From Roseiflexus sp. (GTDB taxonomy: Bacteria > Chloroflexota > Chloroflexia > Chloroflexales > Roseiflexaceae): a DNA stretch of 64,000 bases. Below are positions 17,745 through 19,741 of the stretch, in pieces. The stretch spans positions 1-64,000 of the forward strand of contig JAGHYV010000010.1 in NCBI GenBank assembly GCA_017743475.1. The letters are read 5' to 3'. Position 1 is the stretch's first letter. Each line of letters opens with the position of its first letter. Made by a program: the position numbers and the translations under genes. Under the pieces are notes generated by a model. The model did not search any database. It was not told the origin of the DNA and was given only the letters and a program-made list of their open reading frames with translations.

Positions 17745-17772
17745 TTGACATCACGCCAGAATCCACTACAAT
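17745..17772 (+). promoter_or_regulatory. Strong sigma-70-like promoter of the decarboxylase leader
   Basis: TTGACA at 17745-17750, a 16-base spacer and TACAAT at 17767-17772. Transcription should start near 17779 and pass through a leader of about 395 bases containing an intrinsic terminator. Confidence 0.75.
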
Positions 17773-17778
17773 ACGTTC

Positions 17779-18172
17779 CTAGCGCCTGTGCGCCACATGG
17801 TGTTCGTGCTCTCCGGCAAAAATCCGCGCAAGGATGCAGCGTGATTTTTGGAGCACCATCAGAGAACGGTTCATCTTCGCATGAACGGATGGTCCCGGTA
17901 GAGCGTTCAGGAAGCGTGTATGGACGGAAAAGCCAACTTATCCTGCCGCGACCTGTCGCGCCCGGAGTTGACGCACTTCCAGGCGTGCGGGTGTGTGCCT
18001 GCCGTTCGAGATAGTCTCCTTTGACGAACCTCTGTTGCATGCGCCCCCGCACGTTGAGCGTGCGGGGGTTTTTTGCGCCCCTTTATCTGCCGGGCGAGTC
18101 TGGTCGCATGTTCTGGACTCGTTTTGCTGGCGGCAATGCCAGCCTCGTGCAGATGAAGGAGGTTCACTCCAA
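17779..18172 (+). promoter_or_regulatory. Attenuator-like leader RNA upstream of the PLP decarboxylase
   Basis: The leader has a hairpin core (GTGCTC/GAGCAC and AAAAATC/GATTTTT, about 17809-17856), a stem GTTCAT/ATGAAC near 17870-17886, and a switch region. CGTGCGGG at 17984-17991 can pair with CCCGCACG at 18046-18053, the 5' arm of the terminator, giving an 8-bp antiterminator. Alternatively CGCAC at 17972-17976 can pair with GTGCG at 17985-17989 and free the terminator. I do not recognise a known riboswitch class. A 41-codon Arg-containing frame (17889-18014) crosses the switch and could act as a leader peptide, but its ribosome site is poor. A free-standing small RNA is the main alternative. 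Confidence 0.55.
18044..18074 (+). terminator. Intrinsic terminator inside the decarboxylase leader
   Basis: CCCCCGCACG (18044-18053), a 5-base loop and CGTGCGGGGG (18059-18068) form a perfect 10-bp stem followed by six T (18069-18074). It lies about 100 bases before the decarboxylase start codon, on the same strand. Confidence 0.85.
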
Positions 18173-19741
18173 TTGAATGGGCAGCCCTACGTCACTGCGT
18201 TCACCGACCGTTATGGCGTCGGCCCTGAAGGACAGATCAACGATTTCATCAGCCGTCGTGGCGACCGGTTGCTTCTGGCGGATCAGATAGACCTCAATGC
18301 AATGGTAGCGCGCTATGGCGCGCCGCTAGAGGTCGCGTATTGCCCGCAGATTACGCTTCAGATCGAGCGAATGCTGGCGTGGGCGGGAGAAGCGCGTGCG
18401 CGGAGCGGGTATGTTGGCGGTTTTATCTATGCGTATGCGACAAAAGCCAACTTTGCCGAAGAGGTTGTACGCACAGCTATTAGCGCTGGCGCCCACTACG
18501 AAACTTCTGCCGCTGCCGATGTGACTATCGCACATCGCCTGTGGCAGCAGGGAGTGTTGCCGTCGGATCGATACATCTTCTGCAACGGCTCGAAGGACGA
18601 TGCCTACCTGGCTGCGATCAGTGCGTTGCGTCGTGCTGGCTTCGCGCGTGTTGTGCCGGTCATCGATGACCTGGACGAACTGGAGACACTGCTGGCGATG
18701 TGCCGCGAACCGTTGCTGATCGGTGTACGGGAGCGCCACGCGCCTGCCGATGTCGATGCAGATCATCCCGGTGGTGAACGGTTTGGCTTGACGCCGGACG
18801 AGATTGAGCAGGTTGTGGAACGACTGTGCCATACGCCGCACCGCCTGGTGATGTACCACGCAATGGTTGGGAGTCAGATCGAGGATGCCGATCGCTGGAA
18901 TATGCGGCTGGCGCGTTCGGCTGAGGCGTATGCTCGCCTGCGACAGCAGGCGCCATCGCTGATGCTGTTCAACTTTGGTGGCGGAATGCCAACATCCGCC
19001 TATTCGCTCGATTTTCGTTTCGACTATGTTGGTTTTCTCGAGCGCCTGATGCGCACGCTGGCATCGACCTGCGCCGCCTATGATGTGCCGCAACCAACCC
19101 TGGTTGGCGAGTTTGGTCGCTATACCGTTGCGTCGCACAATGTCTTCATCATGGAAGTCGGACGGGTCAAGCGAGGACAGGGTGATGCGCCGGATTGGGT
19201 GTTGCTCAACGGCAGTCTGATGGTGTCACTGCCTGATAGCCTGATTGTGCCAGGTCAGGAGTTCATCATCCTGCCGCTGGATGGATGGAATCGTCCGGTG
19301 CGCCCGGTGCGCCTTGCCGGTCGCCTGACGTGCGACAGTGACGACTTTTTCCCGCGACCGGGAGCGCCGCCGCTGTTGTTACCCGATCCATATCCCAGTC
19401 AAAAGATCGCATTCTTTGGCGTTGGTGCCTACCAGCAGATGATTGCTGGGCGAGGTGGCGCGCATCATTGCCTGGCGCCAGAAATGCGGCGCATTATTAT
19501 CGAACGTGATGAGGATGCGCTGGTAGTACGCGAGGTTGCGCCCCAGAACCTGGGACAGATTATGGCTCTGCTGGGGTATGCCTGTGAAACGCTGGAATTG
19601 CCGGTGCATCAACCGGTGCGCGCGCCGGTAGAGCGACGGGTAGTGCGCGAACTGTTGCGCCTGCCGCGTTCTGCGCGACGACGTACTGCACTGCGTAACG
19701 CACTTCCGCCGCGTTACGGCAGTGCAGCGCGGCATATGTGA
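18173..19741 (+). CDS. Fold-III PLP decarboxylase, Orn/DAP/Arg family
   Basis: A 522-residue PLP enzyme with an alanine-racemase-like barrel and a C-terminal beta domain. The PLP lysine lies in YAYATKANF, a His in MYHAMVGSQIED (compare H-GSQ in diaminopimelate decarboxylases), a glycine-rich phosphate loop in FNFGGGMPTSAYS, and GEFGRYTVASH matches the EPGR region. The TTG at 18173 follows AAGGAGG, so I prefer it to the longer open frame, which would run through the terminator. The substrate cannot be settled by eye: arginine, ornithine or carboxy-norspermidine-type substrates are possible, so a role in polyamine metabolism is likely. Expression is probably controlled by the leader. Confidence 0.82.
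   Translation: MNGQPYVTAFTDRYGVGPEGQINDFISRRGDRLLLADQIDLNAMVARYGAPLEVAYCPQITLQIERMLAWAGEARARSGYVGGFIYAYATKANFAEEVVRTAISAGAHYETSAAADVTIAHRLWQQGVLPSDRYIFCNGSKDDAYLAAISALRRAGFARVVPVIDDLDELETLLAMCREPLLIGVRERHAPADVDADHPGGERFGLTPDEIEQVVERLCHTPHRLVMYHAMVGSQIEDADRWNMRLARSAEAYARLRQQAPSLMLFNFGGGMPTSAYSLDFRFDYVGFLERLMRTLASTCAAYDVPQPTLVGEFGRYTVASHNVFIMEVGRVKRGQGDAPDWVLLNGSLMVSLPDSLIVPGQEFIILPLDGWNRPVRPVRLAGRLTCDSDDFFPRPGAPPLLLPDPYPSQKIAFFGVGAYQQMIAGRGGAHHCLAPEMRRIIIERDEDALVVREVAPQNLGQIMALLGYACETLELPVHQPVRAPVERRVVRELLRLPRSARRRTALRNALPPRYGSAARHM

Follow-up and report, generated by a model that had tools for sequence, protein, structure and literature searches.

A conserved leader with features of a composite transcription attenuator precedes a PLP-dependent decarboxylase gene in the Chloroflexales

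Related leaders and the decarboxylase locus

Ribosome-mediated attenuators of the trp and his type combine a leader open reading frame (ORF) with competing antiterminator and terminator structures, and the Salmonella mgtA and mgtCBR leaders sense Mg or Pro through MgtL-type peptides, with Rho acting in mgtA. The leader described here shares the ORF and the competing structures with trp and his but has no enriched control codons and carries a structured 5′ domain beside the start site. In common with mgtA and mgtCBR (e.g., PMC3641672), it is a structured leader with a short ORF whose translation would pick stem-loops, but the signals and peptides of those leaders, and the use of Rho in mgtA, set them apart; their sequences and structures were compared through Rfam only. 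In the speF leader of Salmonella and Escherichia coli, the RNA folds and termination are set by translating orf34, a frame of 34 codons, Arg codons among them, that encodes SpeFL (PMC6386406). Here too, a 34-codon ORF and a folded leader precede the gene of a putative polyamine-making PLP-dependent decarboxylase, and the position of the ribosome would select among folds and premature termination. However, consecutive Arg codons in a conserved DUF2618 core mark SpeFL, and speF uses Rho and RNase, whereas the Chloroflexales leader has an unconserved peptide, an intrinsic terminator, and, before the ORF, a large domain closed by a helix, P1; the enzyme families and phyla also differ. By inspection, the SpeFL core HIRRT..HIM is absent from all translations of the upstream ORF (uORF). 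Regulatory RNAs of Chloroflexota are little charted; the structured RNAs from Chloroflexi in Rfam include Chloroflexi-1 (RF01698) and pan (RF01749) (PMC2864571), but no Rfam model matches this leader, and the freely accessible literature searched yielded no description of it or of such a leader controlling a short-form arginine decarboxylase.

The window is a stretch of 64,000 nucleotides from Roseiflexus sp., and all features given below lie on its forward strand. The gene (18173..19741) starts with TTG at 18173, is preceded by the Shine–Dalgarno (SD) sequence GGAGG (18158-18162), and encodes a PLP-dependent decarboxylase of 522 amino acids. SpeA profiles cover residues 47-336 of the protein with scores below their cutoffs, and the LysA profile scores weaker still. 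Its alanine-racemase fold, without the insertion and extension of the long form, points to a short-form arginine-decarboxylase-like enzyme, with arginine as the putative substrate; a Chloroflexus aurantiacus protein has been named an ancestral short-form arginine decarboxylase (PMC7857480). The leader serves this gene alone, since the neighbor past the decarboxylase is on the opposite strand.

Leaders were collected using decarboxylase orthology, not leader similarity, as an independent bait, with the upstream DNA taken by coordinates. Orthologues were found in 25 of the 26 genomes of the family and 75 of the 82 genomes of the order, and the leader precedes the same gene throughout the order Chloroflexales, with approximately 60 leaders in four families and genera including Roseiflexus, Kouleothrix, Herpetosiphon, Chloroploca, Oscillochloris, Viridilinea, and Chloroflexus. 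Five further genomes of the genus carry it, in several of which the DNA further upstream differs, and two other genera show weak similarity. A purine-rich SD followed by TATGRAC is present 250-720 bases 5′ of the gene at 40 of 42 loci outside the family; of the two exceptions, one has the start motif with a weaker SD and the other a run of N. The covariance model of the leader skeleton detected the leader in 60 of the 82 order genomes, usually as a single match, and with few exceptions the match preceded the decarboxylase gene. An earlier note on this DNA had proposed an attenuator of unknown class before a PLP decarboxylase, a reading which this order-wide conservation supports; the large 5′ domain closed by P1 had escaped it, as had the conservation of the uORF at its start and ribosome-binding site. 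Because the leader is conserved across the order despite an unconserved peptide, it would offer a clean system in which a folded RNA, the ribosome, and RNA polymerase are chained in one switch; it also points to a likely sensor of polyamine metabolism.

One additional weak model match (G032:C127:71519) was without the other features of the leader and was dismissed. The Roseiflexus genome itself contains a second leader copy (L009; contig C63:1-417), which is 95% identical, ends at the contig edge, and has a different upstream neighbor; this copy may be genuine or stem from a mixture of strains.

The 5′ domain and helix P1

The leader RNA opens with a short hairpin, P0 (GCGC/GCGC, 17782..17793), aligned by eye with moderate confidence; relatives carry GGTGAAT...ATTCACC or GGTTGA..TCAACC, and the tool alignment does not resolve it. 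Downstream, P1 pairs GCTCTCCGG (17808..17816) with CCGGTAGAGC (17895..17904), a 10-bp helix that closes the 5′ domain; only a few bases separate it from the ribosome-binding site of the uORF. Aligning the leaders of relatives in search of covarying stems, as the earlier note had suggested, revealed strong covariation in P1 as well as co-variation of the antiterminator pairing in family f1 (see below). The two strands of P1 read GCTTTCCTGG/CCAGGGAAGC in L035, ACCCACTCGA/TCGAGTGGGT in L058, GCTCATCTGG/CCAGATGAGC in L074, and GCGAGCC/GGTCTCGC in L038. Among 25 sequences, native P1 duplexes average -15.3 kcal/mol versus -10.6 kcal/mol when partners are swapped, and none of 20,000 permutations reached the native sum. 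The full-length MAFFT alignment (A1) misplaces P1 in family f4; the analysis therefore relied on a skeleton alignment from which the variable interior had been removed. On alignment A2, which is off by one base in register for part of its rows, 77% of the cells pair in P1 compared to 64.5% after shuffling, 49 cells have changed on both sides compared to 17.3 (0/500 shuffles), and all slid registers are worse.

The interior of the domain (17817..17894) is conserved in the genus and contains local hairpins at 17817-17850 (CAAAAATC/GATTTTTG) and 17869-17886 (GTTCAT/ATGAAC); it varies by family and, outside the genus, is replaced by other structured inserts. In family f4, about 75 nt of the interior are near invariant among 18 sequences from many genera, and the 5′ domain has 39 consensus pairs, 10 of them with double changes. 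One such f4 leader, L085:825-992, displays the near-invariant GTTACG...GGGAAGGCACCCGRCAC..CGYAACACGCAACACCGAAC. Judged from these alignments, the f4 domain is a strong candidate for an RNA fold that binds a ligand or a protein. The interior may, however, not be essential, because a second leader copy in a Kouleothrix metagenome-assembled genome (L117; G014:C425), located approximately 240 bases 5′ of an alpha/beta hydrolase gene, lacks the interior domain, its P1 being a plain hairpin, and has a 35-codon uORF starting at ATGGACG and a terminator.

The P1 domain thus has the conserved aptamer-like fold by which riboswitches are recognized. The earlier note had seen no known riboswitch core, in agreement with our covariance-model search, in which no model of Rfam 15, including T-box and all riboswitches, reached its gathering threshold in the window; 17 relatives searched at E-values up to 1 matched no family, and the sole E-value below 0.1, itself below threshold, aligned the bare terminator with a terminator-shaped small RNA model. 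No tRNA or tmRNA was detected. A T-box-like reading of GGGTGG in L040 and L041 was dropped, the motif being unconserved and the Rfam T-box model giving no match. That P1 closes the aptamer of a metabolite riboswitch which remodels the terminator directly, leaving the uORF a secondary role, would fit its covariation, the near-invariant loops of the f4 domain, and the polyamine-type gene downstream; yet P1 and the terminator are approximately 140 nt apart with a conserved open frame between them, and the leader accompanies a single gene in each genome, not a regulon; we regard this arrangement as distinctly unlikely. There is nevertheless a real chance that the P1 domain represents a new aptamer class, and the leader is possibly a new class of RNA.

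Promoter, terminator, and antiterminator

The sigma-70 promoter of the leader (TTGACA-16-TACAAT, 17745..17772) matches 11 of 12 consensus positions and is the best of four promoter-like sites within 10 kb; its counterparts score 9-12/12 in all 41 relatives. The intrinsic terminator (18043..18074) consists of a stem at 18043-18069 followed by T6, and relatives have a stem-loop with a T-rich tail whose position, counted from the ATG of the uORF, is mostly +112 to +160. Both elements lie where the earlier note had put them, although the terminator stem has 12 bp instead of the 10 bp it had counted. A terminator pattern scan returned 6 sites versus 6.7 expected in shuffled sequences, which is not above chance, and the case therefore rests on conservation. 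The segment 17996-18075 folds into the terminator at -35.2 kcal/mol (z -4.2), with none of 200 shuffles as good.

Promoter, structured RNA, and terminator together make a unit of roughly 295 nt, which could be read as an independent small RNA followed by a gene with its own promoter, a possibility the earlier note had raised against its own model. We find this scarcely credible: no second promoter of at least 9/12 lies between the terminator and the gene in any of the 41 leaders, the leader promoter is retained in every one, and across the order the leader stays tied to the same gene and contains a conserved open frame with its start site.

The antiterminator would form between region 2 (17982..17998; GGCGTGCGGG..TGTGC), which covers codons 21-27 of the uORF, and region 3 (18040..18056), which overlaps the 5′ arm of the terminator. 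Within region 2, CGTGCGGG is found at 17984-17991, and upstream of it CGCAC (region 1, 17972..17976) forms a possible anti-antiterminator arm; both had been correctly located in the earlier note. In f1 relatives, the pairing it had proposed for 17984-17991 is found again at the corresponding position, with covariation between this strand and the terminator arm. The sequestering role it had given to CGCAC is echoed in several relatives (TCACC/GGTGA, GCAGCA/TGCTGC) but not in all. The two exclusive states it had envisaged are also recovered by folding: without the terminator 3′ arm, 17977-18056 folds into the antiterminator at -33.8 kcal/mol (z -3.9, 0/200 shuffles as good), and with that arm the terminator forms as described above. 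As modeled, equilibrium folding favors the terminator, and the on state relies on the order of folding.

Mutually exclusive antiterminator and terminator structures are present in family f1, in which the terminator 5′ arm has its pairing partner in a segment 61-82 nt past the ATG, as in one f3 leader. In genus g8, a different segment (codons 8-14) pairs with this arm, with up to 17 pairs in L049. When antiterminator partners were swapped over 14 leaders, none of 20,000 swaps was as good as the native combination, and 13 of 20,000 were when genus g8 was left out. No antiterminator at a fixed place was found in families f2-f4, and the pairing of regions 2 and 3 may therefore be specific to f1 or built differently elsewhere.

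The upstream ORF and the proposed switch

The uORF (17920..18024) has an AGGAA SD at 17909..17913 (GAGG in most relatives), starts with ATG at 17920, and encodes 34 codons, MDGKANLSCRDLSRPELTHFQACGCVPAVRDSLL*, before TGA at 18022-18024; from stop to stop, the frame measures 40 codons. The frame of 41 codons in the earlier note had counted codons upstream of this ATG. The start, TATGRACG, is near invariant across the order. In family f1, most genera have a stop at codon 35, as TGA, TAA, or TAG, and in all 42 leaders examined the frame stops at codons 22-42, remaining open for 20-40 codons past codon 2, whereas open lengths anywhere between 0 and 98 occur in frames 1 and 2. All 42 uORFs terminate ahead of the terminator, mostly 13-65 nt from it. 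Given this conserved start, frame, and stop, the uORF is very probably translated. Substitutions at codon positions 1, 2, and 3 number 77, 179, and 152, respectively, in the genus and its nearest neighbor, and are thus not concentrated at third positions; the peptides diverge between the families of the order, and a search of 301 genomes of the phylum with the uORF peptide gave convincing matches only in the genome itself and in the same genus. By these comparisons, what is kept in the uORF is its start, frame, and stop and not its peptide. By inspection, the uORF also contains a hairpin (CGCGA-CCTG-TCGCG, 17947..17960), with altered but pairing versions in several relatives.

In classical attenuation of the trp or his type, a ribosome slowed at Arg codons over region 1 would free region 2, and the 5′ domain would merely insulate the ribosome-binding site. 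The order of the uORF, regions 1, 2, and 3, and the terminator 3′ arm (region 4) would suit such a device, as would the distance from stop to terminator and the Arg codon found within codons 7-22 of 38 of the 42 uORFs. However, 35-36 of the 42 also have Arg at that place in the other two frames, and the overall Arg content of the uORF frame (13.4%) hardly exceeds that of the others (11.2% and 9.5%); no runs of any codon occur in the uORFs, and the codon-position counts give no sign of selection on the peptide. Codon-run attenuators are recognized by a translated leader ORF ahead of an intrinsic terminator, which is present here if, as we infer, the uORF is translated, and by enriched codons, which are absent. 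Since the peptide is unconserved and Arg codons are not enriched, sensing through Arg codons, as the earlier note had entertained, is not supported; the near-invariant f4 5′ domain would also go unexplained, and we judge classical attenuation unlikely.

A nascent peptide of the SpeFL or TnaC type, arresting the ribosome together with a small molecule, would account for the 34-codon length kept in f1 and a loosely shared GGSxPAV stretch, and the sister order offers a parallel in uORFs that end in VVRHPSTTAG* before the same gene. We nevertheless hold this very unlikely for the Chloroflexales, given peptides that are unconserved between families and substitutions without third-position bias even in the genus.

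The uORF of the sister order of the class (family f8, L088-L092) is a different short frame upstream of the same decarboxylase; its conserved ending lies just 5′ of the gene, looks like an arrest peptide, and, searched as HPSTTAG, had no match in the literature covered. A 10-bp helix can be drawn at the position of P1 in four of the five loci, each of which could individually arise by chance.

The leader is probably a composite transcription attenuator: whether the antiterminator or the terminator forms would depend on translation of the uORF, for which the adjoining P1-closed domain probably acts as a gate. If region 2 is free, it would pair with the emerging region 3, block the terminator, and allow transcription of the decarboxylase gene; with a ribosome on region 2, region 3 would pair with region 4 and the terminator would form, ending transcription approximately 100 bases 5′ of the gene. 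Comparative sequence analysis backs the promoter, P1, the uORF as a translated frame together with its stop, the terminator, and, in f1, the pairing of regions 2 and 3; the assignment of the on state, the role of P1 as a gate, and the nature of the signal are inferred. Since the P1 domain and the start region are conserved and the peptide and its codons are not, uORF initiation is most likely what the signal affects, by way of the 5′ domain. The signal could be arginine, agmatine, putrescine, spermidine, or a protein, the metabolites of the polyamine pathway being the obvious candidates, and the leader would probably switch polyamine synthesis on or off. Against the composite attenuator stands the position of the uORF stop codon, at which a parked ribosome would not cover region 2. 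More tentatively, the leader may represent a new riboswitch class, in which a P1-closed metabolite-binding domain leaves the terminator of the gene untouched but gates ribosome entry on a short ORF, and the ribosome relays the decision to an intrinsic attenuator of polyamine synthesis. Such a device would extend across the Chloroflexales with interiors that differ between families, and its plan of P1 and uORF may be common to the sister order.

In L059, L060, L062, and L040, a by-eye reading located an SD-like GGGAGG 3′ of the terminator, followed by AATA or AATC, and the frame opened there continues in frame into the decarboxylase, which suggests either a longer decarboxylase N-terminus from a non-AUG start or an additional leader ORF. 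Genus g8 (L042-L049) has a second small ORF of approximately 38 codons between terminator and gene, conserved within the genus and Arg-rich towards its end (e.g., MFVQWLKAQLRPSRASSTEWLASRRASLVVVRIRQRG).
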